From assembly GCA_016748015.1 (NCBI GenBank), contig JAAOMT010000703.1, forward strand, positions 1,196,445 to 1,260,444: 64,000 bases of DNA, read 5' to 3'. The translations under genes were made by a program, and so were the position numbers. This document shows, piece after piece, positions 24,632 to 63,229 of this stretch (positions are counted from its first letter, which is position 1; every line of letters begins with the position of its first letter). The notes beneath the pieces are model-generated. The model had not been told where the DNA came from and made no database searches. It saw only the letters and a list, made by a program, of their open reading frames with translations. The stretch comes from Geosiphon pyriformis (Eukaryota; Glomeromycota; Glomeromycetes; Archaeosporales; Geosiphonaceae).

Positions 24632-26171
24632 TCAAGTAATTTTAATTGAAGGCTTATTATTAATTATAGTACAATTGGTAAAAATTGTACCAAAATAAGG
24701 GCCCAGATTAATTTTTGCAATATCATCCGGGTCTTCAGAGTCGACTGTGCCCAAATTGCATTCCTTGAATGTATTATATAATATTTTTAATTCAAAAACG
24801 AGGTCTGCGACTAAATTTTAATTTTTTTTTTGAATAGATTACCTGATTTTCGTCAATCACTCCTGATTTTCTTCCAATACATTTAAAGAGAATAGGTTTT
24901 TTTTTAAATGACATACAATCACAATCAGCTTTTTCGTAATCCAACCAAAACTCTCTTTCATAGTGTAAAAATGGATCCTTTGGCAGCATTTCCCGAGAAA
25001 GCCAATCATTCCAATGAGTTACTCGATAAACCTTTTCAAAAACAATCACTCGCTTCAAAGTTTTTATGAACTCTAAATTTCCGACTCGGGGAGCACCAAA
25101 TGTAACGATACGGGTATGCCATGGACTGAATCCAAGATCTTTTAGTAAACCTCCGGCTATTAATGCTCTATTAAAGCACATAGCAGCTAGCGTTGCATAT
25201 GCTTTGGAAAAAAAAACTTTTGAATAGGGGTTTTTTGGAGTAAAAAAAAGTCAAATTCAGAACCCAAAGTTTACCACCACCAACTCCATGTCCAACAAAG
25301 TAAACGGAAAGCAACACTTGTGGAAATTTTGCCTGGGAAATTTTTGCAAGCTTTTCAAACAATGAAGGCATCATTTGCTCGACATGACTCAGCCAATGAA
25401 AATCAACTAAACTTTGTTGATCTGTCTGAATTGGAGGAGTGAGGTGAAATTTCCTACTCTGCCATTGACTTTTGCTAAGTATTGGTCCTGCAAAGTAAAC
25501 AACAAGTCTCTGGTTGTTTACTGACATATCCCATATGTCAGCTGTACAATTCAAAGGATACGTGTTTTACAAAAAATAATAAAAAGAGTAAGTCTTTGTT
25601 TCCAATAAATTCTAAATAGAATCGATCTTTATAAGCCAAATTATAAAATATCAACTTACCCACGATATTTTCCCCTTTTACAGCTTTACCAATTTCATTT
25701 TGAGAAAAACAATAACCAAAATTTGCAATTATTGACATACGTTTCAGAAAAACCATTAAAGTGGCCTCAGAAACTTGGACTTTTTGTTCTGCGAGTTTCA
25801 CTGGTTTAGGTTTATTTGTTGTTCGTTTAGGGTAGATTTTCCCATCTTTTCTTAACCACATTAACTGTTTTTCATTTTCTTTCTTGAGAAAATTTACTCC
25901 CATATCTTGATTTTTAAGATGAGTTGTGTTAACTTTTTTTGTTAGGAAATTTAAAAATTTCTGATATTTAGCCTGGGATAATAATGAAACCCCGAAAACT
26001 TTTTATTCGGTCCACATTACATTGAAATAAATTTTTGTTCAACTTTTCAGCAAGATTCGATTGAAAAATATTTATATCGGTCAAAGGGTTGCTAACTAAA
26101 AACCTCGTGTAAATGGGCACGAACACGAGGAATCCTAAAAAGAAAGGAACAAGATACATGTATCTCATCAT
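24632..26171 (-). CDS. class 3 pseudo-lipase B, Ser to Gly (393 aa)
   Basis: Five exons on the minus strand: 26171-26021, 25932-25660, 25541-25275, 25201-24843, 24763-24632 (1182 bases, in frame). Residues 1-25 are a strong hydrophobic segment (YLVPFFLGFLVFVPIY), a signal peptide or membrane anchor. IANFGYCFSQNEIGKAV is the usual N-terminal lipase_3 motif. The oxyanion loop reads YFAGPILSKSQW where active enzymes have FRG[ST]. The elbow is FVGHGVGGAYATLAAM: the nucleophile codon (25285-25287) is GGA, Gly. THWNDWLSR keeps the Asp and PFLHYEREFW the His. The final exon gives ECNLGTVDSE and GPYFG. The fold is expected to be intact but ester hydrolysis through Ser is not possible. An active-site substitution within a clean gene suggests a binding or structural role. 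Confidence 0.88.
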
Positions 26172-28041
26172 ATTAAAGATAAAGTTAGATTCGAAATGCC
26201 TAGTTTTATATGATTGTTAAAAACTTTTGAAATCTAACAAATATTTGAACCCCGATTGTCGATTACCGGTTACTGATCATTTCATAATTTTAAGATTGTA
26301 TGATTCCATAATGAATTTAAAAAAATAAAATAATGAATATCAAATTATGTTTTTCCATCTTGTCAAATATATATTAATTGATTGCATAAAGTTTGATATT
26401 CTTTAATCAGTTAATTTAAGAATTATTAATAATGCAAAAGAGTTTTTAGTCACCAATTGAAGTTTAAATTATTTTAAAAGGCTTCATTAATTATAAAAGT
26501 TAAAAGATTTATAGGATTTAAATATTATGAAATTAAACTTGAAAGTTTTATTCAAAAAACCAAAAATTAAAAATAATGTATTTAAAATTTATTAAAATGA
26601 GTCACTTTTATTTTGGCAAGTTTAAGTACATTTATAAAACTTTTATACATGTAATTTATCATGAAAAAATTACTAAAAATATGTAATCATTAAATAACAC
26701 AAAGTGAAAATTAAAATCTGGTGACAAGCTGAACTTTAAGAATAATTTTATACGTAATACATGTAAAAATAGGGTTCATTCTATTTTGGAATTCTATTTG
26801 TTCTAGTCTTGATCGAATGCATTGAAAGGATTCAAGATCTCTGATCAAAGAATGTGGCTGACTAATAACTTGGATTACATATAAGATTGTAAAGAAATAT
26901 AATAAAGTTGATGATACTGTATATAATATATAATAAAGTTGATAATATTGATGAAAAAACTAGATAATATTAATTTAATATATATTCACAAACTTTGAGA
27001 TTAAGAAACTTTTTTATTTTATTAATAAAAAATTAATCCAGAAAAAATTTATGTATTATGTATGTATGTTTGTATGTATGTTTGTATGTATGTATGTATT
27101 TATGTATGTATGTATGTATGTATGTATATATGTATATTTGTATATGTGTATACGTATATTTATATATATTTATATGTAAATTAAAAGATTATTTTAATTA
27201 TTTATATATTGGATTTACAAGATATCTGTAACACTTGATGAGATTTATTTCGTAAGAATCTTGTCGTGTCTTAATAAAATTTTTTTCAAATGTTTAAAAG
27301 TTTCAGTTTCATATGCATATTTCCACTGAATAAGAACGGTTTATTAAAAAGCGATACATCGAAGTTTTTTATCTTTTCAATACAAGATACTGCAGATATC
27401 GATATAAAATATTTTTAAATACATGTAATAAAATAGGTATCCTCTATTACATCCTAAATTGATTCCATTAAAATTGACTACATTAAAATAAAATCAATGA
27501 ATAATTTAGAGTTCTTTTATACTATTAACTTTTTTCTTTTGTAAAAAATTTCATGAAAGGAAATACTATTTATATATTTTTCTAGTTTACAGTATTTTAT
27601 CAAACTGAATTGAGCTGAATTGAATTTAATTGAATTGCTTTTGTAAGTTTTATTTTTAAATTTTTTCTCGGATGAATTATTTAGGCTTTTTTTGTATTTA
27701 CATTAGGAAATTCGGCAAAATTTTATTTTACTCACTCCATTTGGTTAGATTGTATAAAAATTTCAACGTAAAAATGACATAGAATTTTCTGGATGCCAAG
27801 TGCTGAGCAACTTTAAAATGAGAAGGAATATAATACGTGTATGCCAAGATTTCGTTCCTTCTCTAACTTTTTGGGCTATTTAATTCCCACGACTACAAAG
27901 TGACGTAGCTATTAAAGAAATGGATTATTGCCAAAGAGGCTTAGCAAATATCAGAAAAAATATAAACACACTCGAGGGCTTTTTTTTAAAAAAAAAAAAA
28001 AAAAGGAAAATTGAAATATAATATTCTAATTAAAGTAAAGA
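26172..28041. other. divergent intergenic region, pseudo-lipase B / HMG gene
   Basis: Lies between the start of pseudo-lipase B (minus) and the HMG-box gene at 28042 (plus), so both promoters should be here. No coding signal. Holds the TATG microsatellite and a T8/A18 run at about 27980-28004. Confidence 0.45.
27056..27180. repeat. (TATG)n microsatellite with TTTG and TATA variants
   Basis: About 70 bases of TATG/TTTG units followed by a degenerate TATA/TATG tail. Confidence 0.85.
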
Positions 28042-28935
28042 ATGGAAAAACTCCCAAATAATCAAAAGTCACCTGATCATTCCTCGTCAACCCGTCCATA
28101 TATATTCATAAACAATACAATACCAAAAAGTCCAAGCCAACTATTACCTTCTACTACTACAACAAAAGCCTTTTTCAATATACCTTTCCCTCCTAAATTT
28201 TCTCCAGAGGAATTGAATTTAAAATCGAGAAAGAATTCAATACCAACTAAAACTCCGAATGCTTTTATTTTATATCGAAAAGCTTTTGTAAAAGCTGCAA
28301 AGGCAGAAGGTTATAAACTACCAATGACTGTTATATCAACTATGGCTTCTCAGGCATGGAAATTTGTTCCTTTAAATGAGAAAACAGAGTATAAACGAAT
28401 TGCTAATGAGTTGAGAAAAAATTATAATGAAACTGTGGGTTTAAAAATAAAAGAGAAAAGGAAAAATAATAAGAGAGTAAAAGATTGGAAAAATCATGAA
28501 AGTATATTTCTAAAAAAACTCTCAGAGATTTCAACATCTTCTGAAAAGTCTGAAATGTATATTTCAGAAACAAATGAGTTTAATATTGGTTCCAGTTCAA
28601 TATGTTATGAGAAATCAAACCAATTAGAAAATGTCAATTTTTCATCATCTCCAATACCGTTCTCTTCAATTGATCATATGATGAACAATAATAATTTGTT
28701 TCTTAATAATTTTACACCAGTTATCATACCTTCAGAACAATTCCCACTGAATGAAGTTTTAGAATTAAAATATTCAAATTCTTTCCAACAATCATTGGAA
28801 ACTCGACAACCTTTTTATTTCACTAAAGAATTGGAAAAAGATTTAAGCTATCCTACTTCGTTATATCCAATCCTATCACGAAATGAAAATGATGTAATTG
28901 TGATGGATTCGGGTATCGATATTTTTTATACTTGA
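28042..28935 (+). CDS. MATA-type HMG-box protein (297 aa)
   Basis: Single exon. The N-terminus has the family motif RPYIFINNTIPKSPSQL and then AFFNIPFPPKF. The HMG box is at about residues 68-130: PTKTPNAFILYRKAFVKAA, then LPMTVISTMASQAW and EYKRIANELRK. A Lys/Arg-rich stretch just after the box (EKRKNNKRVK) is a plausible nuclear localisation signal. The tail is Ser/Asn/Glu-rich, with no second domain and little similarity to paralogue tails. Predicted sequence-specific nuclear DNA-binding protein of the MATA_HMG class; targets unknown. It sits head-to-head with pseudo-lipase B, 1.87 kb apart. Confidence 0.9.
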   Translation: MEKLPNNQKSPDHSSSTRPYIFINNTIPKSPSQLLPSTTTTKAFFNIPFPPKFSPEELNLKSRKNSIPTKTPNAFILYRKAFVKAAKAEGYKLPMTVISTMASQAWKFVPLNEKTEYKRIANELRKNYNETVGLKIKEKRKNNKRVKDWKNHESIFLKKLSEISTSSEKSEMYISETNEFNIGSSSICYEKSNQLENVNFSSSPIPFSSIDHMMNNNNLFLNNFTPVIIPSEQFPLNEVLELKYSNSFQQSLETRQPFYFTKELEKDLSYPTSLYPILSRNENDVIVMDSGIDIFYT

Positions 28936-30657: not shown

Positions 30658-32214
30658 TTATTTGTTTAAAATTGCGGGATTTATTCCATTACAATCACCA
30701 AAAGTAATACCAAAATAGGGTCCCCGATTTGTGAACCCATAGTCATCTTCCTCATTTTCAGAGTCGACTGTTCCCAAGTTACATTCCTAAAAAATATATA
30801 TTTTTTGTTCAATAAAAATTTTTTCCACAAATATTTTAAAAAATACAATTTCTTTCAAGAGATTACCGAATTTTCGTCAATTTCTCCCCGAGAATTTCTT
30901 CCAATACATTGAAAAAGAGTCTCTTTTCTTTGAAATGGTGGACACTCACAATCGTTCGGTTCATAATCAAGCCAAAGTTCCCTCTCGTAGTGTAAAAATT
31001 GACCCTTTGGAGAGAAATCGCGAGAAAGCCAGTCATTATGTCGAGTAACTCTGTAAGCACCACGAGTGGGTAAATTGTTTCTCACTGTTCTTACAAATGC
31101 GTAATTGCCAATTCGAGGAGCACCGAATGTGACGAGATTTACTTGTGTTCTTTTAAAGAGATTATCTTGTTTTAAAATTCCGGCATGCGTCATGTATTTA
31201 AAATATATAGCGGCTAGCGTTGCATATGCTTTAGCAAAAATAATTTAATATTCATCAAATAAAAATGTTTTATGTTTAAATCAAGTGTTTTTCTTTTCTT
31301 TTTTTTTTCTTTTTTTTTCAAAATAAATTGTTTTTACCTCCACCAACTCCATGTCCCACAAAGTAAATTGGTACAGGCCGAAATACATATTTTCTAAGTT
31401 TATTTATTAAAAAAGGCACCATTTGCTGAACATGACTCAACCAAATAGAATCAACCAAACTCTTTTGATGAAGATCAGGACTCATGTCTATTTCAGTGAC
31501 CTTTAATTGTCTCTCAAACCACTCTTTTTTGCTGAGACTTGGGCCTCGAAAGTAAACAAAAGGTGTGTGACCTCCATCTGGCTTTATCCATATATCAGCT
31601 GGGAGATTAAAGAAAAAAAGTTATGAAAATAAAAAGGGAAAGATTTTACTTTAGGAAAAACAAAGAGCCGTTTTTTTTGGTAAGTTTCAATCGAGTATTA
31701 AATGGGTAAATAGGTAATATACCGACAATATCTTCTGTTTGCAAAGTTTTTCCGATTTCATTCTGAGGTAAACAATAAGCGAAATTTGCAACTTGAGCCA
31801 TTCGCCTTAGAAACGATATTACCGACTTATTGAGAAATTCAACCTTGCTTGTTGTAATTTTTATTGGTCCAGAGCGTTTGACCACATTTTCTATACCCTT
31901 CAAATTTATGTTATTTCCTTTTTTCAAGCTCATTAAAGTGTGGTCTACCTTTTGCTTAAAAGGGTTTACTATAGATGACTTTTCTTTGAAGCAGGAATTT
32001 GGCTTTAAGGCGTTAGAATGATGGTAGTAATAATTAAATTTAAAAAATTTGAATTTTATTTCTCACTACCTTGAAAATCGTTCTTCTTCAAATTCTTGTC
32101 AACTTCAAATTGAAAACTATTTATATTTAACGAAAAGTTGTCATAAAATTTAATAAGGCTCGGTATCAATAAGACAAGTAATAAGAGAATATTTTGCATA
32201 GCATGCATGTTCAT
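30658..32214 (-). CDS. class 3 pseudo-lipase C, Ser to Gly (385 aa)
   Basis: Five minus-strand exons: 32214-32070, 31983-31723, 31598-31338, 31228-30867, 30786-30658 (1158 bases, in frame). The exon 2 acceptor is chosen by phase and is the least certain join. The N-terminal ILLLLVLLIPSLI is a signal or anchor. VANFAYCLPQNEIGKTL is the lipase_3 entry motif. The oxyanion loop is YFRGPSLSKKEW, with Pro for Ser/Thr. The elbow is FVGHGVGGAYATLAAI with GGA at 31348-31350. Asp (TRHNDWLSR) and His (FLHYERELW) remain, as does TFGAPRIGN. The last exon reads ECNLGTVDSE..GPYFGITFGDC. Same architecture and phases as B, D, E and F. Predicted catalytically dead toward esters by the Ser route. Confidence 0.87.
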
Positions 32215-36085: not shown

Positions 36086-37088
36086 ATGTATAAATATTCT
36101 ATTTGTCTTTGCAAAATTTTACCATCACTTTTTAAAGGGAACCAAGCAGCAGTGACGACCTTGACAACGATTACTACAACAATTCTGTTTGCAAACATCT
36201 TTATAACATCATCCTATAGCTGTGAAGCTATATCAATTTCATCAAGTTTATCAAATAAAACGCCCTTTAATTCACCATTTATTAATCAATTCAAAAGATT
36301 CATAAAGAAAGACTTGGATTTTCAAGATAATTTAGAATTTGCAAGTGAAGATTTAGACCAGTTTCCCGGGCTTGACTCATCAATTTTTAAATTTCCCCCT
36401 AATGAAAAAATTAAATATGAAGAAAGTGTACCTGAAGTTATCTTTGATCCCTCTTTACAAGAGTCTGGGAACTCAGAATTTCAAAACAGTGATCAGAACT
36501 TATTGAAAGGACTTGGAATCAAAGATTTTTTAAATTTTTTTAAAAGCCAATTTTTTAATTCTCGTCCCATTGCTGAAACTAAATACCGAAAAATTGTTCA
36601 AGATCGTTCCATTTTAAATAAATTTGCAATAAATGCAATATTAGCTAATTTAGTGTTTTGCTCTCCTACAATTAAATTCTCAAGTAATATTCTATCAAAT
36701 AATGAATCATATTTTCAAAATTTGACTTGATATTTTTCGATAACTCAGGATTCGCAAAAATGGAAGAAACAAATTGATATCAAAAAATTCTTACTTTCTC
36801 TCTTCGAGGGGAGGAAGATGATTTAAAGATATATCTTTTACAAAATATTTATATGGGAGAATATCCAGGAGTTTTGAATGCTCATGTTCATAAAGGATTT
36901 TACGAAGAGTTTGAAGAGGCTAAATTAAATTTTTTGAAATTTTTCAAAGAGACGATCAAAAAGGAGAAGAAAATTGATGAAATTGTTATTGTTGGTTATA
37001 GTTTGGGTGGTGGTACTTGTTTAATCTTTTGAACTTTTATTTTCGAATTTTATAGTGACTTGATTTAAATTCTCTCTCTAATCTCGCA

Positions 37089-37129
<41 letters not shown>

Positions 37130-37652
37130 CATTATTTATTTATTTATTTATTTCTAAAACCAATTTTATTAGTCTATGCAGTCTTGGCCGGTCTCTTTTT
37201 GAAAGAAAAGTTCCCTCATATATTTTCCAAAACTCCCCTAACGATCTTTACATATGGGCAATCAAGAATAGGTGACTCCAACCTGGCAAATTTTATCTCT
37301 AAAAACCTTCTTATTTATCGTGTAACAAACACCGATGATTTGGTACCTCAATTATTGGGAATCGGGGGAGAAAATGCGGATGGCCAAATATTGTATACAC
37401 ATCACGATACTGAGTATTGGATTGCCCCGGGCTCGAATATCGTGTTTAAGTGTTTTCCAAAAGGATCAGATCCTGAGTCAAAGGTTAGCTTCAAAAAAAA
37501 AAAAAAATTTAGTAAAAATTTTTTCTTATATTGAACGTTATATCAAATTTCTTTAGGAATGCGTTAACTCTCGATTTTCACGAAAAATTCAAAAATCGCA
37601 TAAGGGACCTTATTTTGGTGTGATGATGGAAAATTGTAATAGTTCCAGATAA
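36086..37652 (+). pseudogene. class 3 lipase-like gene A2, serine kept, in-frame TGA
   Basis: Four exons: 36086-36683, 36749-37012, 37173-37483, 37557-37652; the joins keep one frame (422 codons), broken by TGA at 36775-36777. A Thr-rich N-terminus leads into a hydrophobic segment (TTTILFANIFITSSYSC), and an acidic Ser/Asn-rich region precedes the domain, as in gene A. After the stop come KILTFSLRGEED, VHKGFYEEFEEAKLNFL and the canonical elbow IVGYSLGGVYAVLAGLF (Ser codon 37000-37002). Next are FTYGQSRIGD, TNTDDLVPQ (Asp) and YTHHDTEYWI (His). The terminal exon has GPYFGVMMENC. This is the most catalytically complete copy, yet it would be truncated unless the TGA is an error, removed by a different intron, or read through. 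Intron 3 (37013-37172) carries an ATT repeat. Confidence 0.75.
37085..37152. repeat. (ATT)n / (ATTT)n microsatellite in intron
   Basis: About 15 ATT units then TATT units, inside the intron that follows the nucleophile-elbow exon of gene A2. Confidence 0.85.
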
Positions 37653-38232
37653 AATATATTTTTTTGGGGTTATAGAATTAAATGATGGCTCTCTCATTTG
37701 TCATTTGAAATAAGGTTAATTACGTATTTTATTTCTTTTAAAGACTTTTGTGACTTTCAAGAAAATGGAAATATTGCAAGATAATATTGATGCTGAGAAA
37801 ATGTATATTCAATAATCAAAAACTTTTTTATGATACATTGATTTTTTTTCTATAGAATCGATCCTCAAATCGGAGAAATTAAAAGATTAGTATTTTTATC
37901 TAAAATGACAAAAGGACAATGGGAAAGATTTTCTGCATTTCTGTGTACATGTAGATACATTGTATTTAAAGTTTGAAATCATAATAACCTTTGCAATAAA
38001 ACCTTTTTTGATAATCACACTTTTTAAGTTTGAAATAGAGAAACATCATAAATATGAGCTATGCGTTTTTAAAATACTTGTATTACTTTCTAATATATAC
38101 TATACATAAAAAGCTTTTTAAAAAAAAGAAGTGTTTTTTTCCAAACTTTAAAGTAAAGATATTATTAATAAAAATCATAAAAAATTTTTATTGACATTCT
38201 AACCATAATTGTTGTAAATTTTATTCGCACTC
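37653..38232. other. gene-free stretch
   Basis: 3' flank of gene A2; no coding signal. Confidence 0.35.
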
Positions 38233-39590: not shown

Positions 39591-39600
39591 ATTTATTTAG

Positions 39601-40142: not shown

Positions 40143-41601
40143 TCAGCATTTGCCAAAATCAATGCCAAAATAAGATCTCTGATTTAATTCTTTAATATTA
40201 TCATCATCAACTGTTCCTAAATTGCATTCCTAAAAAATATTTATCATAATAATTATATTTAAATAAAATAAAATATAATTAATAAATTAATAACATTCAG
40301 AAAATTTACCACATTTTCATCAATCTGTCCTCGAGGGCCTCTTCCAAGACATCTATAAAGAGTTTCTCTTTTTGGAATTATAATACATCCACAATCATCT
40401 TTTGCATATCCCACCCAATACTCGCTTTCATAGTGCAAAAACCAACCCTTTGGCGAGAAATCACGAGAAACCCAATCATTCTGTTGAGTGACCCGGACGA
40501 TTTTTTTTTTTTGAAATGATGCATTAACTAATCTTACAAGGTCCAAATTTCCGAATCGAGGAGTGCCAAATGTGTAAATGCCTATAATTATGGGTTTAAA
40601 CCTACGATATGATGGAAAACATTCGACAAGCCCTACATGCTTAAAATACAAAGCAGCTAAGACCGCATATACTTTGAAAAGAAATATTTCAGTAAAAATA
40701 AAATAATTTTGAATTGAATGATTTTAAAGAGAAAAAAAGTTACCCCCGCCAATTCCATGTCCAACAAAGTCAATAGACTCAGGTTGGTTTGTCAATTTTT
40801 TTAGCTTTCCATTTAATAAAGGGATCATTAGTTGAACATGCTTTAACCAGATCGAATCGACCATACTATTCAGAGGTTGACGAGTGACTATATTTGTTGA
40901 ACTGACATTAAATGGTCGGTTTATCCATTGCTCTTTGCTGAGTTTTGCCCCTCGAAAATAAACAACTAATTCCTTTTTTTTTATTGATTCTTCCCAAATG
41001 TCAGCTATGAAATAGGTTTTGATATAAAAGAACAATCATCTTCACTATAAAACTTGCGCTCATTATAATTCAAGAACATAATACTAAGGGTTTACCGACG
41101 ATGTCTTGGTCTTTCACAGCTTTTCCAATTTCATTTTGGTTATCACAATAACCGTAATTTGCAATTTCAGCCCTGCGTCTCAGATTATTTTTAAAGGATA
41201 TATCAGCAATCTCAACCATGCGTGACCCGAATTCATGATTAATGCGCTTGACATTATCTGATGTTTCTTTCAACTTTTTATTTTTGCCTTGTTCTGCTGT
41301 CAATAAATTGATATATTTGATCTTTTCAAGAGTTTTAGAGGATAAAAAATTTCCTTAAAGGCAAAGATTTTATATTTAAATAAAAAATTTTTCTTATACG
41401 CTTAATTCTGGTGAAATTTTGAAACAGAAGAATATTCTTTGTATCTATAATACCTTGGTTTGAACTTTTTTCCAATTCTCCATTGAAATTTAATTGAAGT
41501 TTCAGCAAATCCGACAAAGATTTGCTGTAAAAATTCAAATTGATTTGTACGATTATGAAAACAAAAAAAAAGTAAAAGAAAAATTTTTTTATTCTCGACA
41601 T
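40143..41601 (-). CDS. class 3 pseudo-lipase D, Ser to Gly (371 aa)
   Basis: Five minus-strand exons: 41601-41454, 41353-41096, 41004-40744, 40671-40310, 40229-40143 (1116 bases, in frame). N-terminal FFFYFFFVFIIVQINL is a signal or anchor. IANYGYCDNQNEIGKAV is the entry motif. The oxyanion loop is YFRGAKLSKEQW (Ala for Ser/Thr). The elbow is FVGHGIGGVYAVLAAL with GGA at 40754-40756. TFGTPRFGN, QQNDWVSR (Asp) and FLHYESEYW (His) are kept. The last exon gives ECNLGTVDDD and SYFGIDFGKC; it is the shortest C-terminus of the five. The TATA-like CTATAAATA lies only about 30 bases before the ATG, so the leader may be very short or the start may lie downstream. Confidence 0.87.
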
Positions 41602-43590: not shown

Positions 43591-43861
43591 TCAAATTATA
43601 GAAGAAACTAGATTTAAAAAATTCAAATTTTGAGATTGTATCTGATCTATATAAGAATAATTCGGGTATTCACAATTATAATCATAATTATTATAAAAGG
43701 AATGAATATCTATTATATCGTACTGATTATAAATTATTATTGGAGGTTTTTCAACTGAGGTGGTCAAGTTTTTCCCTTTTTCTTCTATTGATTCGATATT
43801 CGGGAAAATTTGGGGAGAAAAATTTGAATATGAAATTCCTGAAAATTCATTAAGAGATGGT

Positions 43862-43892
<31 letters not shown>

Positions 43893-44580
43893 CAGCTGGG
43901 GTGAATACATTAAAAGATGAATTATCGATTGATGAAGAAGATTTATTAGAAAATAGAAAATTTTCATGCTCAAATTGGTTGTTAATTGGTTGCGTTAATA
44001 ATATTGGATTCGAACTAAATTTCAATGTTTCTTTTTCACAAAGTTCACTTTCAAAATTTTTCGACAATGTTAAAATTTGATTTCGTTTTAATCCTGATTT
44101 GTCTTGTTTTTTCTGATTGTTCTTTAAGCTACGACTTTCTTTTACACCTTTGTTTGAACTTATATTCTGACTATTTATGTTTCTCAACTCTTTGGCAATT
44201 CTTTTATATTCTTCTTTAACATAAACAGGTTCTAATCGCCATGATTGTGATGCCATAGTCGAAATGACAGTCATCGGGAGTTTGTAACCTTCCATCTTTG
44301 CAGCTTTAACAAAGGCTCTTCGATATAGAATGAAAGCATTTGAAGTTTTTGTTGGTATTTTACCGGTTGTTAAATTTTTTTTTGAGGTTGAATTTAAATC
44401 TTCTAAACTAAAATTTGGTGGAAATGGAAGATTAAAGAAAGGTTTTGTAACAGAAGACAAGAGTTGACTCGGATTTTCTGGGCTCGTATTACTTATGAAT
44501 ATGTAAGGTTTAGATGAAGGAGAATTTAGTCTCATTTGAGAGCATTCAAAGTGATTTTTTTGATTATTTGTTTTGGTCAT
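43591..44580 (-). CDS. MATA-type HMG-box protein with Thr tract (329 aa)
   Basis: Single exon. The N-terminus has KPYIFISNTSPENPSQLL and TKPFFNLPFPPNF. The HMG box spans about residues 76-137: PTKTSNAFILYRRAFVKAA, LPMTVISTMASQSW, EEYKRIAKELR. Trp, Tyr and the basic residues of the fold are in place. The tail contains an uninterrupted run of about 12 Thr (near residues 231-242) encoded by an ACT microsatellite, and ends in a Tyr/Asn-rich segment. Predicted nuclear DNA-binding regulator. It is transcribed away from the HMG gene at 48657 (head-to-head, 4.1 kb apart). The antisense strand is also open over part of the gene but has no protein character. Confidence 0.9.
43860..43893. repeat. (GTA)n microsatellite coding a poly-Thr tract
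   Basis: About ten GTA units on the plus strand (TAC/ACT on the coding strand), within the HMG-box gene. Absent from the other HMG genes in the window. Confidence 0.9.
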
Positions 44581-45995
44581 ATTAAAAATATTTGACGAAT
44601 AAAAATTATCAAACTTTTTTAAATTTTTTAAAAGTTGTTGTTACTAAAAAGTCTTTATAAAAAATTCAAAGCTTTTTCAGAAAAATTTGGAATCTTTTTA
44701 TATTAAATTTTATAGTTAATTTTTATTACTTGTACCAAGTTAATTATAGTTACTCAATAAAAGATTATTATTCAAGAAATCTAATTACTAAATCAGGTAC
44801 ATTCCTTTTTCTTGGCTTTTCTACAAGGAAGTGTTTTTATCCATGATCAATTTTTTACTTTTGATAAAAACTTTCGGAAATATTTCATTCCGATAAAAAG
44901 CCACCGAAAAAAATTGTTCAATACATTCGAATGTGATGACTTTTAATAAGTATTTCATCCACTCGGTGATAAAATAGCTAATGAGATTTTCTCTTTGTTC
45001 TTTAGAAAAAAAAAAAAAAAAATTTTTTTTATTACTTGTAGATTTCACAGTCAAAGGAAAATTCTTTATTAGAAGATTTTTTTTTGTTTAAAATTATTAA
45101 GAGTTTAATTAAACTTTATCTAAGACTTTCTTGGCATCCTAAATAGATTAAATAGATACTAGATTAGAAAATTTTATGTAATCTACATTCAAAAAAAAAA
45201 TAGTCTGTAGCACCAAATTACTATTTTTTAACTAATATTATTATTATTAATGGTTTCAAAGTAAACCAATACGGAACTCAAAATAGTTAAAAATAATGTT
45301 TTTTCGTACATTTTGAAACGAAATTTCAATGTAAAAGCTTTAAAAATGATAAAAAAAATTTTTTTTCTATTTTAATACAGATTAACCAAAACAAATATTA
45401 AAATTCTAAGTTTTTATAACTTATAATAATTATAAAAAAATATTTTAAAATTAAAAAATTTTTTAATTTTAAAATATTTTTTATTTATTTTACAATTCAT
45501 AAATTATATAAAGTTTGAAAATTTTATATTCAATTGTTATATGACAATAAGCCTTTTGAATATAAATATCTATCGTGTATCGATGCATTTGATCTTTGTA
45601 ATACAAATCGGAATTTAAATTCCTTAATAATGCCCAATTCTCGGATCTAAAAATAGCCCAATAGTAGATCCTTTTTTTATAGATAAAAAAAGTTAAATAT
45701 AAAGTGGCACAGTTTTTTAGTAAAAACCTACTCTCATCTGGGCGCCCCGTGAAAATTTGATAATAGCCAAGCAAAATTCCAAATGGACAAAAAAATTAAT
45801 CTAGAATTTTTCTTTGGAAATGAATTTTTTTGAGATCAATAATTTCTAAAAATGTTTTAATCTAGAATATTTTTACATTACGAAGAAAGATATTTAAAGA
45901 AAATATTTATTATATATATCTATATATCTATATTTAAAACTTTGCACCAAATTTTTTTTCAATTCTAATTCACAAAATATTTCAATTACAAAAAA

Positions 45996-47929: not shown

Positions 47930-47931
<2 letters not shown>

Positions 47932-47999: not shown

Positions 48000-48000
<1 letters not shown>

Positions 48001-48656
48001 CTGCACTTCAATGATAAAAGAGTAGAATCTCCTTTTTTTGATGTGCAATATTGAATTGCCTTTTTGTATGATCGGGGGTTTTAAAGATTGTTCGAATATG
48101 AATATATATTTATATGTTTGTTTATTTTTGAAAATTAAATGTTCAAAGCTTGCTAAAAAAAATCCCTAGAAATGGGAATAAATTTCTCTTACTTGTTTTA
48201 GATAGACTAATTTTTATTTCATATTAAGTGAAATCGAAAAAATTTACTTTATCTCCAACTTCTCTAACTAGGTCTAAAGTATCTTCATTTAAGTATGCTT
48301 ATTTTTTAAATTCCTTATTATATGAATTTGAATTAAAATGTAGAGAAGATATTAATTTTTACGTAATTGTATTACTATTCATGCACTAAACCCCAAAAAA
48401 ACTATAGGCATTGATAAAATATGTGTTCAAATCTATGTTTATTCCATATAGAACTTTCTTTACGAATCTTTTTAAATTTAAAGAAGTTTCTGAGTTACAC
48501 GTAGGAATCTTTCAAAGATCTTTTTAAGAATATAGATTGATAAAAATTTGGGGGATAAGGGGGTAAGGAGTTAGTAGAAAAATTTTTTTTTATAAAAACC
48601 TGAGGTATGTCCATTTTTCAAATTTTTTAATCATTACTTTTAAAATTTGACTAATT

Positions 48657-49493
48657 ATGAAAAGCCTTCAAGAATCCCTTATTGACTCATCATCGTCATC
48701 ACAATCATATATATTCATAAATAGTACAAACCCAAAAAGTCCAATAAAACTCTCACCTTCTCCTGTAACTAAACCTTTTTTTGATTTACCTTTTCCTCCG
48801 GAAATCAATTCAGAAAATTTAAGTTCAATCCCGAGAAAACGTTCAGTAACCGGTAAAATACCAACGAAAGCTCCAAATTCTTTTATTCTATATCGAAGAG
48901 CTATTGTTAAAGTTGCAAAGACCAAGGGTTATAATATTCCAATGACTGTTATTTCAACGATGGCTTCCCAGGCATGGAAACTTGAGCCTGAATATGTAAA
49001 GGCAGAGTATAAAAAAATTGCAAAAGAATTGAAAAAGAAAATTAACGAAATTAACGACCCAAACAAAAGAAAAATAAAGGAAAAGTACAAAAAGCAGAAA
49101 AAATTAGTGATAAAGAAATTGGATAAAACTTTAGAATTGAAAAATTCTCAAGAGCTAATTTTAGGAAACCAATTATTAAATATACATTCAACTCCAATCT
49201 GTTATGGAGAATTTAATAGGCCAATCAATAATTTTAATTATCAAGATTGGCATTTTTTCAATAATATTTCATCTTTTCCTATGCTTAACTCACCTATCAC
49301 ACCTGTAGAGTTATCTTATTTCAATGAAAGTTTAGAATTTAAAAATATTAAATTAGGAAAAGATTTTGAAAAAGATTTTACAACTTCAATTCAACCATCT
49401 TCTCCTATGATACAACCTAACTGTTATGATATCAGCGGAATAAATTCAAACATTTATTTTTACTCTGAAAATGATAATAATATATTTTTTTAA
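48657..49493 (+). CDS. MATA-type HMG-box protein (278 aa)
   Basis: Single exon. The Ser-rich N-terminus carries SYIFINSTNPKSPIKL and TKPFFDLPFPPEI. The HMG box is at about residues 69-130: PTKAPNSFILYRRAIVKVA, IPMTVISTMASQAW, EYKKIAKELKKK. A basic stretch after the box (KRKIKEKYKKQKK) could serve nuclear import. The tail is short and Asn/Phe-rich. Predicted nuclear DNA-binding regulator. It is the closest in layout to the gene at 43591-44580, its divergent neighbour. Confidence 0.9.
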   Translation: MKSLQESLIDSSSSSQSYIFINSTNPKSPIKLSPSPVTKPFFDLPFPPEINSENLSSIPRKRSVTGKIPTKAPNSFILYRRAIVKVAKTKGYNIPMTVISTMASQAWKLEPEYVKAEYKKIAKELKKKINEINDPNKRKIKEKYKKQKKLVIKKLDKTLELKNSQELILGNQLLNIHSTPICYGEFNRPINNFNYQDWHFFNNISSFPMLNSPITPVELSYFNESLEFKNIKLGKDFEKDFTTSIQPSSPMIQPNCYDISGINSNIYFYSENDNNIFF

Positions 49494-52690: not shown

Positions 52691-54136
52691 TTAGTTTAAA
52701 TAAAATGCAGGATTTATTCCGGTACAGTTTCCGAAAGTAATACCAAAGTAAGGTCCTTGGTTTACTTGAGAAATATTATATTCTTCTGATCCAATTGATC
52801 CTAGGTTGCATTCCTAACAATTTTAAGTAGAATATTACAATTAAATTTTAAAAAAACATAAAGGTCTATATAAATTACCTGATTTTCATCAATTTCCTCC
52901 AAATTTTTTTGAACGCATTTAAAAATTTTATGTCCTTTATGAGATGAGAAACAGTCACAATCATCAAGCCAAAATTCTGTCTCATGGTGTAAAAATTGTC
53001 CCTTTGGCAAAAACTCCCTGGGAAGCCAGTCATTCGAATGAGTTACTCGAAAAATATTTTTATTATTGAATTTTCTTGCGATCGAATTTACAAAATTCAA
53101 ATTTCCTACTCGGGGTGCACCAAACGTGATAATACCGATGCGTGAGGCTTTTAAGCGACCATCTGGTATTATAGTTCCACCGAGCATTGCTTCATGAACA
53201 AAGAAAGCAGCCAGCACCGCATATGCTTTGAAAAAAAATTGAATACATTTTTCGTTACAAAAAGATAGAAATTTACTTGAAAATTTTTTTTTACCTCCCC
53301 CAACTCCATGTCCAACAAAATAAAGTTTAGTAGTCGATAGTTGAGATTTTTCACGGATCTTTTCGTTAAGCTCGCCAATCAATGCCGGCATCATTTGTTT
53401 TGTGTGCTCCAACCATACAGTATCGACCAATATTTTTTCATCAACTTCTATTGAACTGACATTAAATTGTCTACCAAGCCATTCATTCTTGCTTAGTCTT
53501 GGTCCTTTAAAGTAAACAAAAAGTGCTTTTGAGTCATTTGGTCTTTCCCATATGTTAGCTAGGAAATTTAGAAAAACAAGCAAAAAAATAATGTTTTTCT
53601 ATTAGTTGAATTAAAAAAAAAATCAAAAAATTTTGTGGCCCAAGATTTACCTATAATATCCTTCCTTTTTGTAGCATTTCCAATTTTATTTCGAGGAAGA
53701 CAATAAGCAAAATTTGCAACCCGAGCCATACGCTTTAAAAATGATATTACAGACCCATCAAAATATGGAGTCTTGCCGTTTTTATATTTAGGACTTCGTT
53801 TAAAATGAAGGTTTCTTTGTTTTATTAAAGTTTTGTTTTTTTCAAGAGATTTTATCGCCCAAATTTTTTTTTCATGTAACACGTCTTATAATATATGATA
53901 GAAAGTTTGTATTTAGACATTTGATATTAATTTAAATAGCTTTTTTCTTGTTTAGCATTACCTTGAAAAAGACTTTTACTCATCAGTTTTTTGATGTCTA
54001 AAAAAAAATTACTTGAATTCGAGAAAATAACACAAAGAGAATTTAAATAATTCCGTAAAAATATTAAGAAAATTACTAAAAAAAAAAAGAAATGAATATT
54101 TTTTTTTCTATAAATTTTCATTTTTTCAGGGTTCAC
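52691..54136 (-). CDS. class 3 pseudo-lipase E, Ser to Gly (380 aa)
   Basis: Five minus-strand exons: 54136-53962, 53884-53651, 53558-53295, 53225-52879, 52813-52691 (1143 bases, in frame). A second ATG five codons in is an alternative start. The N-terminal IHFFFFLVIFLIFLRN is a signal or anchor. VANFAYCLPRNKIGNAT is the entry motif (Lys for Glu). The oxyanion loop is YFKGPRLSKNEW. The elbow is FVGHGVGGAYAVLAAF with GGA at 53305-53307. TFGAPRVGN, THSNDWLPR (Asp) and FLHHETEFW (His) are kept. The last exon encodes ECNLGSIGSE and GPYFGITFGNC. The intron after the elbow exon happens to be open, so an unspliced frame runs through it. Confidence 0.88.
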
Positions 54137-56520: not shown

Positions 56521-58480
56521 AGCCATTTTTACAATTTATGTTGACATTATATCTATTGCTATTTGATGATCCCAAATAATAAGAAACTATATTTACAATA
56601 TCTCAAATTAATCCACCTTTATATAAAATCAAGGATTTTATAAAGATTAAAAAATTTTCATATCAAAGCCTATCAATTATATTCTGATTACAATGTCCAA
56701 TTAGATCCTTTTTGTCATCATGAAAATGCAAAAAGAAAATTTCTTTTGAGAATTTTGGTGATACCGCATATAGTTCAACCATTTTGAACGGAGATAATTC
56801 ACACTAACCTTTTTTGTAATAAATATACACTATCAAAACATATTATATTGTTTGGATAATCTTTAAAAATTGCCTAATATGGATTAAAAGTATGGAATGT
56901 TTTCTTTCATTTATTTCCATGAATAGCACAAAAATATTTTTCGAACTTTAAATTTTTTCATTTGGCTTTCGTAGCATGACATAGTTTTTTGGTGTTCGTA
57001 TTTACCTTAAAAAATTTATTGAAGATGAGATTCTTATGATCAAGGAATTTTTTTAACTTCCGAATTTCTCCAAAGTTCAGTGTGAGTACCACAAATTAAA
57101 AGATAGTGAACAAGGCCAGAAAAAAAATTTTATTTACTAGTTAGAAACCATGACTTTATATAGTAAACAACAGCTAGAACAAATTTTTCGACAAAAAAAT
57201 ATTTGCATTAAACTACAATATATAAGCAAAAAACTAGTGCCAAGGCTTGAATATGAAACAATTGAAAAAAATGATTAATATTCTTTCATTAATAAGCATT
57301 TATTTGATCAGGTCATGAATATTTCTGTTTTTACTTTTTTGATAGTTATGCATGAATCATGGATTTTTTAAGGGTCAAATTTAAATCAATGAACTTTTTA
57401 TCACCCAAAATTAGTAATATGTATGTATTAAAAAATTTTTATGTAAAATTTTCCAGCTGAAAAATATTAAATGAATAATTATTCTCTGAATGTCCATTGT
57501 TTTATAGAACATTGAAATAAGGTATATTTATTTCCCTTAAATTCAAGCCATCAATTATTAATCTTAATTTAAATTATATCTTTTCCTTTTTTTTGTTTTA
57601 TAAAAAATTTTAACCAAAGTGTGAAGAGAATAGTAGCTTTTGAAATTATTCCGTTGTCATAGAACACGGATAGAATGTCATGAAATCTTTTAGAAGATCA
57701 ACAAATGACGGTGCATCTAGATTCTTTGCCGTGGCTAACTTTAAGTCTCCACTAATTTCTAACACAAGACCTGTTTTTATAAATGTTGCATATTGAAATA
57801 TCTAAGCTTGTATCTAATAATCTTTTAATTGAAGAATTATAAAAATTAATTTTAATATGCTATAATGTATTTTTAAAGGTGAACATAAGAATATTTCGGT
57901 AAAAACAAGCAAAATTATTAAATTTTATTTTTAACATTATAATTACGATTATGAAAAAAAGATTCATAGATACTTGTTTCATTATTTCTGTTTTAAAATA
58001 ATAATTAATTAATTATGAAATAAATTAAAGTACAAAAATATTTATGATTTTGAGTTAGCCTAAGATTTAAGTAAAAGTCAAATTCAAATTGATTAATAAA
58101 GATTTTATACAAGCAATATGGATGGGAGAGGGTCTTATGATTAAATCAAACGAAGGCTGAATTAATTCTTTGTTTGTTATTGTTGTTGGCTGTTAATTTA
58201 TGCTATTGGTTGTTGGTCGTTTTTGTTGTTCTACAAGGCAATTGAACTTTCTTTGTGTTTACTACAGCTGCTGCAATTTAGTATTTGTAGCGAATAATAA
58301 TGATTCTATTAATTGATTTGTTAAACCAAGTGTGAACACAGAGAAACAATATTAATAAGAATTCAGTCTTTAAAAAATTACTTTATAAACGTACCATCAA
58401 ATAAAGCTTTAAAAAAACTTTTAAGAATAATAATTTATTCACCTTTTCTCTTTTATAAGCCATTATAATTTATCTACACC
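56521..58480. other. gene-free stretch
   Basis: AT-rich DNA with no supported gene. Includes the promoter side of the kinase starting at 58481. Confidence 0.4.
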
Positions 58481-58974
58481 ATGGAAAACAAAGAAATTAA
58501 AAGAGCTCGTCCTTATTCTCATGATTGCAAACTTTGTGAATTTTGTCAAGAGAGCATTAAAAACAATAGTAATAATGGTTGTAAAGCATGCCAGTTCACA
58601 TTTTTTTGTAAAACTTTATAAAAACTTTTCAAGTGGAAATAAAGTAGTTGATGAACTGATTAAGAACCCAACCTATATTCTACCTAATGATAAATGTAGT
58701 AGAGAAAAAAACGGTAGATTAAAACATTATTCTTGGATTCCATGGGAACATTTGTCGAATATCACCGAAATTGGTAGAGGAGGTTTCGGTATAATTTATA
58801 AAGCAAACGTAATTGACGGATTAATTAATGAAGATACTATAAAACATCATGGTTCAATGAAATATGAAAGACTGAAAAGAAATGAAGAAGGGATGGAAGT
58901 AGCAATAAAAATTATAAAGAACAGTGAAGAAGTATTTAAAGAGGTAATTATATTATTATTATTATTTATTATTA

Positions 58975-59050
<76 letters not shown>

Positions 59051-60200
59051 TAATTCATATTTATCTATTATTTATTAACTATATACTTTATTTATAATTT
59101 TTTATACTTTTGATAGTTAAATATTCAAAGAGTTATGTTTATTAATAATGATGAAACCTTAGATAGTGTCTCTTCAATGTATGGGATCACGCAAAACTCT
59201 GAAACACTCGAGTATGGAATTGTGATGGAGTTTGCCAAACATGGAGATATGCGAAAATATTTATCAACAAATTTTCATTCTATCAGTTGGTTTGATAAAT
59301 TATTCACCGCACGTTCCATAGCTTCTGGACTTTCAGAAATTCATTCTTCTCGTATGGTTCATCGTGACCTACACTCGGGCAACATTCTACAATATGAACA
59401 GGGTGTTAAAATTGGAGACCTCGGGATTATGTCAATCTACAAACAATGAAACAACAACAACAACAACAGGTAAACATGCAAAAGAAAAAAATATATATGG
59501 AGTGATTCCATACATTCCACCAGAAGTTTTAAGAGGAGAAAAGTTTACAATGGCTGGTGACATTTATAGTTATGGAATGTTATTATGGGAATTAGCAACT
59601 GGGAAACCTCCCTTTTATGATTGTACACATGATCATATCCTTATAATGGCTATTCTAAATGGGGCCAGGCCTAAGATTACTTCCCCACTTATTCCACCTT
59701 TTATCGCCGAACTAATTGTAAAATGTTGGGATGTTAATCCAAAGAATCGTCCTACTGCTTGGCAGGTTTTCCTAAAGTTGTGGGAACTTAAAAACATGTA
59801 TCGGAAGTTCAAGAATAAGAGGTTTGCAGATGAGGATACTACAAGTGAAGAGTTTAAAACTGAGATGCCTGAAATGAAACAGTTTTTAGAATCAGATAAA
59901 TACGTAAAAGAAATGTTGAAGAATGACATGACAAATAATACTTCAACGACAACAAACATTCATCCAGGAGCAGTTTACACAAGTCGTGTTTTAAGTTTGC
60001 AAATGATTGAAGAAACAAAAGGTTAGTTAGAAGTAATTAATTATTTTTGATTATTATAAATTAAAATTTATTTTATCTTCATTTACTTTTTTGAAAGTAT
60101 TAGTCTATTTGCCTAAAGGTAAGTAATTATGATAAATAAAATTTAGAATGTAAATTTTTATTTTTTAACACTTATTTCATTTACTTTAGGCGACTCATAA
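58481..60200 (+). pseudogene. protein kinase gene with two frameshifts
   Basis: ATG at 58481 opens a Cys-rich N-terminus (HDCKLCEFC, then CKACQF) typical of the amplified kinases of AM fungi. The frame shifts by one base in a run of seven T (about 58600-58606) into the kinase frame. There, WIPWEHLSNITEIGRGGFG is the Gly-rich loop and EVAIKIIKN the ATP-binding Lys. A GT..AG intron (58942-59115) holds ATT repeats. Exon 2 has VMEFAKHGDMRKYL, the catalytic loop VHRDLHSGNIL and a DLG in place of DFG (59417-59425). An extra G there shifts the frame; deleting it restores GLCQSTNN, then VIPYIPPEVL and WELATGKPPF. Two tiny tail exons (60098-60118, 60190-60200) are possible. The product would be a Ser/Thr or Tyr-like kinase. 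Both lesions lie in homopolymers, so they may be sequencing errors. Confidence 0.82.
58941..59050. repeat. (ATT)n microsatellite in kinase intron
   Basis: About 110 bases of ATT and ATTT units immediately after the exon 1 donor site, filling most of the intron. Confidence 0.9.
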
Positions 60201-61762
60201 TAAATATAATCGTGATCGGACATCATAATTTTTTATATCACATAATTTTATTAAGATATTTTTATAAAGGGTATTTCCTCTCATAATATTTTTTACTGTT
60301 TTCGCTGTTTTTTACAAGTTTAATGTTTCAACATTTGCTCGTTGATTTAAAACAATATTATAAATACCTAATCCCTTATTGAATAATTTAATTAGCTATA
60401 GTACACAAAGACGTCAAAAAAAGTTTTCTTATTTATCTTTTTGTTTAAACAAGTGTTCTGAGACCCTGTTAATAAGAGCATAATCATTGGGTTAGCTGAT
60501 TCAAAAAAACATAAAAACGAATTTACAATTGATTAACATTTATTAAATTACATAAATCAATCTCAATATAGGATCAGAAACAAATTTCATTTTTTTAAAC
60601 CAAATTCTATTTTATTATTTCAATTAAAATTTTTATTTTATTTTATTTTATTTTATTTTATGTTATAAAATTTAATTAAAAATGAAGGAAAAATTGTTTT
60701 TTGAAAACAATTTTAAAATAAAATAAAATAAAATATATATTAATATTAAATGCTAAATATTTGCTAATTAGAAATAAATTTATTTATAAAATAGAAATAA
60801 AAGTTTTTTTTAATAAATCTATTTATTTTATTTGTTCTCTATCAACCAATAATATCTTGTTAATCAATACAAAAAATTATTTTAATTTTAATAAAAAGCA
60901 TAAAAATATAAAACATTAAAAATTTAATTTAATTTTAAAAATAAAATTTTTTAACAAAAACAATGTTTTAAATATTGTGAAAAATTATATTTTTATTAGA
61001 GATAAATCAATTCAATATTAAATGTATAATTTTTTTTTTTTAGAAAAATTTATAAAATTTAACCTTGATTAAATAGGTCCGAGTGGCTGATCACATGTAG
61101 AAAGTGCATGAGCCACGTTTTACTTTAGAACATATATGTCTTGTTATAATAATAATAAAGTTTTTTTTTAATAAATATTCAAAAATTTCTTTGAAACAAA
61201 TATTTTTATATTATTATATTCTAAAAATAATTTATATATATATATATATATTGAAATTTTGATTAATTGTTATTATAATGTCAAATATTATTTAATAAAT
61301 TTAAATTTAGATTTTTTTTCTAGAATTTAGATATACGAAAATATTCAAATTTTGGTTTTTTTGGGAAATTTTTCAAGAAAAAAGTTAACCATTAAATTAA
61401 ACTGTGTATTATTAAATTATAAATTCTGAATAAAACTTTTTATCAGAGTAAATTCAACTAGAGTAATATTTGCTATGGGCTATTATTTACTTAGCGAGTG
61501 TTAAAAATAAAATATCAATTTTTCAGTGGGTAAAAATTTTCAATCATTTTTTTATAAACAAATTCTTCTTTTTATTAAATAAGGAGACTTTATTGGCTTC
61601 GAAGACGTCTATGAAAATTTACACCCAAAAAAAATGCTCAAATTCATAAATGTGATGTAAAATTTGATTAATTCAAGTTTTTGGTATTATTCAGATATAA
61701 AAGTCGCTATAACATAAAAAAACAATCATTGGTTCCCAAAAAATTGGGAATATTTATTAAAT
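60201..61762. other. gene-free AT-rich stretch
   Basis: 3' flanks of the kinase and of pseudo-lipase F (convergent). Holds a TTTTA tract near 60635-60660 and the second hairpin element. Confidence 0.4.
61083..61120 (-). repeat. 38-base dispersed hairpin element, copy 2
   Basis: Inverted relative to copy 1 at 18793-18830, matching at 35 of 38 positions. The stem-forming ends GTGGCTGAT and ATGAGCCAC are kept, while CACGTG of copy 1 is CATGTG. Lies between the kinase and pseudo-lipase F, over 600 bases from each. Confidence 0.65.
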
Positions 61763-63229
61763 TTAATAAAAATGAGAATCCTGTTCTGAAAAGGTCATTT
61801 TGTTGTAGTCACATGTGCCGAATCTAATACCAAAGTAAGGCCCAATATTTGGTTTAATATTATTATTTTCTTCTTCAGAGTCGACTGTACCCAAATTACA
61901 TTCCTAAAAATAGTAATTGTAATAATTATAATAATTATATCATAAAAGAAAGCTTTCTAATGCGAAACTTACCTCATTTTCATTAACCTCTTGCCTAGAG
62001 TTTCGCCCAAAACATTGAAAAAGAATTTGTTTTTTTGATGGACATTCACAATCATCTTTTTCATAGTCCAACCAATACTCCACCTCATTATGTAAAAACA
62101 TACGCTTGGACATAGAATCTCGAGAAACCCAATCGTTAAAATGAGTTATCCGGAAAAGATTTTTAATAAGAAATGATCGCTTCACTTGGTTAACAAATGC
62201 TAGATTTCCGATTCTGGGGGCACCAAATGTGATAATTTGAATTTTCTTTAAGCTTATATTCGTATGTGATTTTATCGTGTCATTAAGTAAAAGATTACGA
62301 AAATACAAGGCGGCTAACGTTGCATATGCTTTAGAGAAAAATAATATTAGTATACATTTGTAGGCATAAAATAAGTTCTTACTAAATATATATTATTTTT
62401 GATGACAAAGATATTTACCTCCACCAATTCCATGTCCAACAAAATAAATTTTATCAGGCTTGTATCGTAATTTCTCAAACTTTTCAGTTAATAAAGGCAT
62501 CATCATCTTAGTATGTCTCAGCCAAGTAGCATCGACCATGCTGTTTTCCCGCCAAAGAGGATCTACTTGTATTGGAGCCATGTAAATTGATCTCTGACGC
62601 CATTGCTCTTTACTAAGGTTTGGTCCTCGAAAGTATGCGACAAATTTGACGCCGTCAATCTTATTTGTCCAAAAATCAGCTATAAAATCCAAAAGTATGT
62701 TTTTGATAAATTTTTCACTTTAGCGTAAATTGAATATTAAATAACAATTATTTACCAATCACTTTTTTATCCCCTACAACTCTTCCGATTCGATTTTCCT
62801 TGCTACAATAAGGAATATTTGCAATTTCTGCCATCCGCCTCATAAAAAGTATTGCAGTCTTGTTAAAGACTCTGATTTTTTCTGTTTTGAATTCCTTTTT
62901 TATAGGGCCCGATGGATTTTGTGTTCGTTTCCAATACAGTTTCTTTTCTTTTCTCAACCTCATTAAATTCTTGTTTTCCTCTTCCTCAAAGGGCCTTACA
63001 CTCGAAACTTCTTTATTTAAAACGTTGAGTTTTATTTCTGTTTGATAAGGAATTCACCCTAGCAATTTAACCAGAAATAATTATAAAGTTAAATACCTTT
63101 AAATAGGATTTTGTTCAACTCTTTATCGAAGTTCAATTCTAAATCATTTTGGTTAAATGAAAAGTTCTTGCTAGAACTCAAATAAATTTTTATAGATATA
63201 AACAGTAGAAAAAAAATGAAATTTTTCAT
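61763..63229 (-). CDS. class 3 pseudo-lipase F, Ser to Gly (390 aa)
   Basis: Five minus-strand exons: 63229-63097, 63037-62756, 62679-62419, 62328-61973, 61903-61763 (1173 bases, in frame). N-terminal MKNFIFFLLFISIKIYLSSS is a classic signal peptide or anchor. IANIPYCSKENRIGRVV is the entry motif. The oxyanion loop is YFRGPNLSKEQW. The elbow is FVGHGIGGAYATLAAL with GGA at 62429-62431. TFGAPRIGN, THFNDWVSR (Asp) and FLHNEVEYW (His) are kept. The last exon encodes ECNLGTVDSE and GPYFGIRFGTC plus a 14-residue tail longer than in B-E. Same predicted loss of Ser-based catalysis. Confidence 0.88.

Follow-up and report, generated by a model that had tools for sequence, protein, structure and literature searches.

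What do class 3 lipases do once the serine of their nucleophile elbow is gone? This question is raised by a stretch of 64,000 nucleotides from Geosiphon pyriformis (GCA_016748015.1, contig JAAOMT010000703.1, positions 1,196,445 to 1,260,444 of the forward strand), referred to here as the window, in which five lipase-like genes, W1 to W5, carry glycine at the place of the catalytic serine. Judged from sequence, the reading that we moderately favour is that these genes belong to a family of pseudo-lipases, secreted or anchored in the membrane and maintained by selection, the old cleft of which would bind a ligand or partner. The five predicted genes, in window positions and with protein lengths in amino acids (aa), are the following:

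24632..26171, minus strand: putative pseudo-lipase gene W1 (393 aa), spliced model with open frame and GT-AG introns, Lipase_3 E 1.2e-13; exons 26171-26021, 25932-25660, 25541-25275, 25201-24843, 24763-24632; nucleophile-elbow codon GGA (Gly for Ser) at 25285..25287

30658..32214, minus strand: putative pseudo-lipase gene W2 (385 aa), spliced model, Lipase_3 E 2e-16; exons 32214-32070, 31983-31723, 31598-31338, 31228-30867, 30786-30658; elbow codon GGA at 31348..31350

40143..41601, minus strand: putative pseudo-lipase gene W3 (371 aa), spliced model, Lipase_3 E 8.2e-17; exons 41601-41454, 41353-41096, 41004-40744, 40671-40310, 40229-40143; elbow codon GGA at 40754..40756

52691..54121, minus strand: putative pseudo-lipase gene W4 (375 aa), spliced model, Lipase_3 E 3e-18; exons 54121-53962, 53884-53651, 53558-53295, 53225-52879, 52813-52691; elbow codon GGA at 53305..53307

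61763..63229, minus strand: putative pseudo-lipase gene W5 (390 aa), spliced model, Lipase_3 E 2.2e-16; exons 63229-63097, 63037-62756, 62679-62419, 62328-61973, 61903-61763; elbow codon GGA at 62429..62431

These models are predictions with GT-AG introns, read from the sequence without transcripts. Each consists of five exons in an open frame; the first three introns are in phase 1, the fourth is in phase 0. Together they span 24632-63229, exactly the range over which the original prediction had placed five intact five-exon genes with common intron phases. The elbow is split by intron 3, so that GHG[VI]GG closes exon 3 and [AV]YA opens exon 4, and the joined elbow is exemplified by GHGVGGAYATLAA. 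The active-site state described in that prediction was recovered in full: TCC on the plus strand gives GGA on the coding strand at 25285, 31348, 40754, 53305 and 62429, in all five genes; the Ser/Thr of the oxyanion loop is replaced by Pro, Pro, Ala, Pro and Pro in W1 to W5, respectively; and the Asp (NDW), the His (FLH) and the [AT]PR-GN block are present in each gene. The His motif had been written as FLHxExEW, of which FLH holds but the remainder should read FLHxExExW. The predicted signal segments correspond to a hydrophobic N-terminus in every protein (best 16-residue Kyte-Doolittle mean 2.1-2.5), which would suit a signal peptide or a signal anchor alike. Six Cys are common to W1-W5, one N-terminal, then C-x-C, then three, their equivalence being judged by order and spacing. 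The G+C content of the window is 26%.

Membership in the class 3 lipase family is clear from the Lipase_3 (PF01764) match of all five proteins, at 51.6-66.5 bits against a curated cut-off of 22 and with E from 1.2e-13 to 3e-18, and the Pfam scan at E 0.001 found no other family in W1-W5. W2 could be aligned with the lipase of Rhizomucor miehei (1tgl) at E 9e-6. In this alignment W2 has Gly where we take the nucleophile Ser to be and Pro in place of the oxyanion Ser, and its Asp and His coincide with the remaining two triad residues. Because nucleophile and oxyanion residue are both lost, it is very unlikely from the sequence that W1-W5 work by ordinary serine lipase chemistry. Restoration of the serine by alternative splicing was considered and rejected: exon 3 contains the Gly codon ahead of its donor site, and a six-frame scan of the window for GH[SGACTD]xG[GA] returned five elbows only, with no GHSxGG exon available for splicing. 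Intron 3 of W4 (53294-53226, minus strand) comprises 69 bases, in frame and free of stops, and its retention would add 23 residues right after the elbow.

How far this state extends was assessed by a census of the 124.7 Mb genome, in which Gly-His-any-[FLIMV]-Gly-Gly followed by a phase-1 donor (G|GTR) was searched. The census gave 252 elbow exons, with none for a reversed-pattern control; as the pattern presupposes Gly-His and Gly-Gly, these are elbows of one kind, and exons rather than proven genes. The residue at the nucleophile position is Gly in 172, Ser in 32, Ala in 23, Asp in 7, Arg in 4, Glu in 3, Tyr in 3, Phe, Cys and Asn in 2 each, and Ile and Leu in 1 each. By codon class, Gly accounts for 83 + 89 = 172 exons, codons with first base A, C or T for 47, and GCN or GAN for 33. 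Ser has therefore been lost from 220 of the 252 elbow exons (87%). Among these 220 the share of Gly is 78%, compared with 6.4% of all residues in the same exons, which argues that the elbow site is constrained and has not drifted freely. A sample picked by similarity, the best 30 of 137 matches to the W2 exon, contained 25 Gly, 2 Glu, 2 Ala, 1 Arg and no Ser. On this contig, nine Gly elbows lie inside 74 kb, five of them in the window and four no more than about 36 kb past its end. With 172 Gly elbows in the genome, sequencing or assembly error was discarded as the source of the glycine.

Two further elbow forms were seen. One locus on another contig (L052, G000:C85:71210-74452) has a Gly elbow with Tyr for the elbow His (GYGIGG); since it falls outside the census pattern, the 172 Gly elbows are a lower bound. 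Alanine is the second common state, and 18 of its 23 elbows read GHAIGG or GHAVGG (e.g. G000:C301, C314, C356 and C378); these Ala elbows may form a subclade of their own.

Was the serine lost in each copy separately, or was the glycine inherited? Per-gene results come from 91 loci (the 30 best Pfam matches and the 30 best W2-like ones, both biased by similarity, and 30 first in contig order), which yielded 75 distinct elbow exons, under a third of the 252. Exon 4 was doubtful for seven of the 75; two without a fitting exon 4 were dropped and five were kept, leaving 73 rows of exon 3 and exon 4. A maximum-likelihood tree, for which the elbow residue was masked, was built from 70 rows after removal of three further rows rich in gaps and of two outgroup rows. 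It supersedes an outgroup-rooted quick tree, which was poorly resolved and was set aside. In the 70-row tree, six Ser genes split from the other 64 rows with support 100/98, and these 64 comprise 49 Gly, 11 other and 4 Ser rows. Rooted on the Ser clade, their ancestor is reconstructed as Gly by Fitch parsimony and by likelihood (0.96 under equal rates, 0.88 under free rates). Several later changes lead away from Gly, to Ala, Glu, Arg, Asp, Cys, Ile, Phe/Tyr and Ser, and most are one base from a Gly codon. The tree thus supports, as the most likely history, that a single early change from Ser to Gly was followed by retention of Gly in most members of a genome-wide clade; a few separate origins of Gly are possible, the deep branches being weak. 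Since Gly is the reconstructed ancestor of their clade, W1-W5 most likely inherited it. The original prediction had reasoned that ordinary decay would not fix the same change in five copies, and this argument was mistaken, one inherited state being the most likely account.

The remainder of the active site was followed through the 73 rows, which divide into 6 true-Ser and 67 pseudo rows (51 Gly, 16 other). Among the Gly rows, Asp is kept in 49 of 51, the exceptions being one gap and one Asn, and His likewise in 49 of 51 (two gaps), a conservation that matches that of the best structural residues of exon 4; the 16 non-Gly pseudo rows keep Asp in 13 and His in 15. The oxyanion Ser/Thr, by contrast, is found in 0 of 47 readable Gly rows and 0 of 14 readable other pseudo rows (0/61 together), against Thr in 5 of 5 readable true-Ser rows. 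Its place is taken in the 47 Gly rows by Pro (23), Lys (8), Ala (5) and others. The Pro/Ala of the window genes is thus typical of the local clade, and elsewhere the site holds many residues, never Ser/Thr where readable. Of the 73 rows, 61 have the C-x-C; these include 47 of the 51 Gly rows and none of the 5 readable true-Ser rows. What is odd at the heart of these observations is that two parts of the catalytic machinery are lost and the other two frozen.

A dyad conserved to this degree might be taken as a sign that the proteins are still enzymes, in which Asp-His would serve as general base towards water or a hydroxyl of the substrate and no covalent acyl-enzyme would form. Precedent exists in the dioxygenases of alpha/beta-hydrolase fold, which rely on a His-Asp dyad. 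Nevertheless, the oxyanion Ser/Thr has gone as well, and relatives carry Glu, Asp, Arg, Tyr, Phe and Ile at the elbow, which speaks against a precise active site, so that retained catalysis seems distinctly improbable.

Selection was examined with a self-written codon model on exons 3 and 4. The clade nearest to the window five contains 11 genes, nine from this contig and one each from contigs C266 and C366, of which ten are Gly and one is Glu. Its ratio of nonsynonymous to synonymous change (dN/dS, omega) is 0.46 (p 1.2e-19 against 1). A two-class model for the 11 genes places about 47% of sites at omega 0.10 and the rest at 1, with posteriors for the constrained class of 0.994 for the elbow Gly, 1.000 for the elbow His, 1.000 for the triad Asp and 0.995 for the triad His. 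Seven Gly genes that form a sister group give omega 0.265, two further Gly sets 0.32 and 0.24, and five true Ser lipases 0.133.

These values bear on the view that the family is a burst of duplicates of one dead lipase in relaxed birth-and-death, under weak constraint and without a selected function. Such a view would fit the youngest duplicates, whose omega of 0.60-0.74 is indistinguishable from 1 (W5 clade 0.71, p 0.11; three-gene clade of C8/C104 0.60, p 0.051; W3 pair 0.74, p 0.32), and single pairs, which reach 1.05 by a simple method. It is nevertheless unlikely, as the deeper Gly groups lie at omega 0.24-0.46 with p from 1e-9 to 1e-32, all five window genes are intact, and Gly keeps its 78% share of the non-Ser elbows despite deep divergence. 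The original prediction had named dN/dS near 1 as the outcome that would speak against selection; this is refuted for the 11-gene group, but the newest duplicates cannot be told from 1. Its proposal of a selected, secreted or membrane-anchored family is supported by the omega of 0.46, the constrained Gly, Asp and His, the hydrophobic N-termini and the six common Cys, although the argument on which it was based is not. The roles that it named, as lipid binder, decoy or scaffold, are candidates.

Apart from constraint, part of the domain diversifies in the window clade. For the 11 genes, model M2a is preferred over M1a by twice the log-likelihood difference (2dlnL) of 35.6 (p 1.8e-8), and the extra class takes in about 10% of sites, at omega 3.8. 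The preference persists for gap-free sites (26.1, p 2e-6) and seven divergent members (21.5, p 2e-5), and the signal is weak in the four-gene W5 subset (8.7, p 0.013). Null simulation of nine sets gave 2dlnL of at most 3.6. Gene conversion among the tandem copies is a possible confounder of the codon-model signal. A posterior above 0.8 is reached at 13 sites, among them the stretch immediately ahead of the elbow strand, the loop that follows the elbow helix, the position two residues N-terminal to the triad Asp and that three residues N-terminal to the triad His. No class above omega 1 was found in the five true lipases or in the sister group of seven Gly genes.

This pattern lends itself to a different explanation, namely recognition or adhesion. 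The dead lipase fold would here be a stable extracellular scaffold, likened to EDS1/PAD4/SAG101 or neuroligin, whose surface loops bind proteins or glycans of the host, of a microbe or of another individual, and expansion with diversification would reflect an arms race or self/non-self recognition. The diversifying sites, their lack in true lipases and sister Gly genes, and the tandem clustering of nine Gly elbows in 74 kb are all consistent with it. The top fold neighbours of a weak structure model (predicted local distance difference test, pLDDT, 59.9) are fungal lipases and a feruloyl esterase, and EDS1 complexes are also present among them. EDS1 and PAD4 keep their Ser, which is reportedly dispensable for basal immunity (PMC6465387). 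On the other hand, the diversifying signal is confined to the window clade, and an Asp and His frozen at the bottom of the cleft are needless for a purely superficial role. Recognition is regarded as possible, though tentative.

The retained fold, Cys pattern and Asp-His pair, all under selection, argue for a binding role in the old cleft, and the pseudo-lipase reading favoured above may be elaborated as follows. The probable reason for the persistence of Gly is that, once catalysis is needless, it is the residue best tolerated by the strained backbone of the elbow, as structural knowledge of the fold suggests. Selection holds the fold together with the Cys pattern and the Asp-His pair, with computed diversification of the residues before the elbow strand and near the Asp and His loops in the window clade. 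The former catalytic cleft has most likely become a binding pocket, in which Asp-His could act as a hydrogen-bonding pair for the polar head of a ligand. This ligand would most plausibly be an acyl lipid or other ester, captured uncut on the surface of the hyphae or at the interface with the host. Among the listed fold neighbours is a Thermomyces lanuginosus lipase with the S146A mutation, bound to oleic acid, which indicates that a class 3 lipase without Ser is still able to hold a fatty acid. Arbuscular mycorrhizal fungi depend on plant lipids. No match to the helical domain of type I fatty-acid synthase (FAS-I) was found in the genome by one domain search that had no positive control, a result in keeping with a lipid-dependent fungus. 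Together with the 26% G+C of the window and the 124.7 Mb of the genome, it is an indirect sign of an arbuscular mycorrhizal fungus. In an arbuscular mycorrhizal setting, lipid capture would be the most natural role, with surface recognition as its main rival.

Several observations weigh against this binding role. An arms race between proteins would account for the diversifying sites no less well than lipid binding, the conservation of Asp-His could be purely structural, and the absence of FAS-I depends on that single uncontrolled search. The pLDDT of 59.9 marks the structure model as weak, and the youngest duplicates, with omega indistinguishable from 1 and single pairs up to 1.05, may be partly relaxed. 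In the 70-row tree, 23 of 67 inner branches are open, the bootstrap is unsettled and two long-branch warnings were raised. Moreover, four Ser rows fall inside the pseudo clade; three of the four lack the oxyanion Ser/Thr and have the C-x-C, so they look like reversions or a tolerated Ser rather than working lipases.

A bolder version of lipid capture can be drawn, in which well over 100 extracellular proteins would form a diversified receptor or carrier system for acyl lipids, or lipid signals, of the host. The head group would be read by the dyad, and specificity would be set by the fast-changing residues that flank it. Its premises are a fungus apparently without its own fatty-acid synthase, one ancestral Ser to Gly change and a frozen Asp-His pair, and taken as a whole this version is doubtful.

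The pseudo-lipase genes share the window with other predicted genes, which are listed below:

19193..20721, plus strand: divergent class-3-lipase-like gene N1 (416 aa, four exons), model, Lipase_3 E 1.6e-10

36087..37653, plus strand: divergent class-3-lipase-like gene N2, from sequence reading and open frames

6775-7803 (minus strand), 28039-28935 (plus strand), 43591-44640 (minus strand) and 48651-49493 (plus strand): four HMG-box open frames amid the pseudo-lipase genes (Pfam, one just below the cut-off)

58434-60026, plus strand: fragmented protein kinase gene (59322-60026 matches Pfam PK_Tyr_Ser-Thr)

15917-16339, minus strand: F-box-like open frame (Pfam, just below the cut-off)

N1 and N2 are Ser-bearing lipase-like genes on the plus strand which the original prediction had missed. 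The elbow of N1 reads AFSMGSG, with Ser kept and Gly-His lost, and its oxyanion loop (FAAE) is non-canonical. N2 also keeps Ser (GYSLGG) beside a non-canonical oxyanion loop; by reading, no in-frame acceptor was seen ahead of its exon 3, and the gene is possibly broken upstream of that exon. The kinase pieces are separated by low-complexity repeats of trinucleotide type, as judged from the open frames. A leucine-rich-looking open frame directly follows the F-box-like frame (14581-16339, minus strand) and has no Pfam match.

Pseudo-lipases as such are already known, whereas a genome-wide class 3 family with an ancestral Gly elbow is apparently undescribed, no description having been found in searches of open-licence papers. 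Dead paralogues are usually a minority: for neutral lipases of fig wasps, which belong to another lipase family, one survey reports 3.9% without the full triad (PMC9143690), in contrast to 87% Ser-less elbow exons of one kind in this one genome. If the organism is an arbuscular mycorrhizal fungus, its lipid biology would be misrepresented by an annotation of these genes as lipases, and they would be candidates for the part that the fungus itself plays in lipid uptake or in recognition of the host. The combination of Gly with Asp-His also offers a clean test of a hydrolase fold that keeps two triad residues without the third.

Among known systems, the closest are the fungal class 3 lipases (R. 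miehei, T. lanuginosus) and feruloyl esterase A (PF01764), which the window proteins resemble in sequence and in the fold of the weak model. Asp, His and a secretion-type N-terminus are held in common, whereas the window proteins have Gly for the nucleophile Ser and have lost the oxyanion Ser/Thr. The phase-1 elbow intron of the window genes is common to the Ser lipases of their own genome, from which the window proteins differ in the extra C-x-C. With the plant proteins EDS1, PAD4 and SAG101 they share the Lipase_3 fold, EDS1 complexes being among the fold neighbours. The plant proteins are intracellular and have a C-terminal EP domain; in all five window proteins, Pfam (E 0.001) found no EP domain after the lipase domain, where 79-95 residues follow the Lipase_3 match. 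The nearest parallels to the glycine itself are the dipteran yolk proteins and the neuroligins, in which a hydrolase fold is kept with Ser changed to Gly (a parallel unconfirmed in the literature searched). These are small gene families of other hydrolase families, the yolk proteins being of the lipase family PF00151, and no PF00151 match is among the Pfam matches of W1-W5. The window proteins thus show the same Ser-to-Gly change as yolk proteins and neuroligins, but match Lipase_3 only and belong to a genome-wide array.

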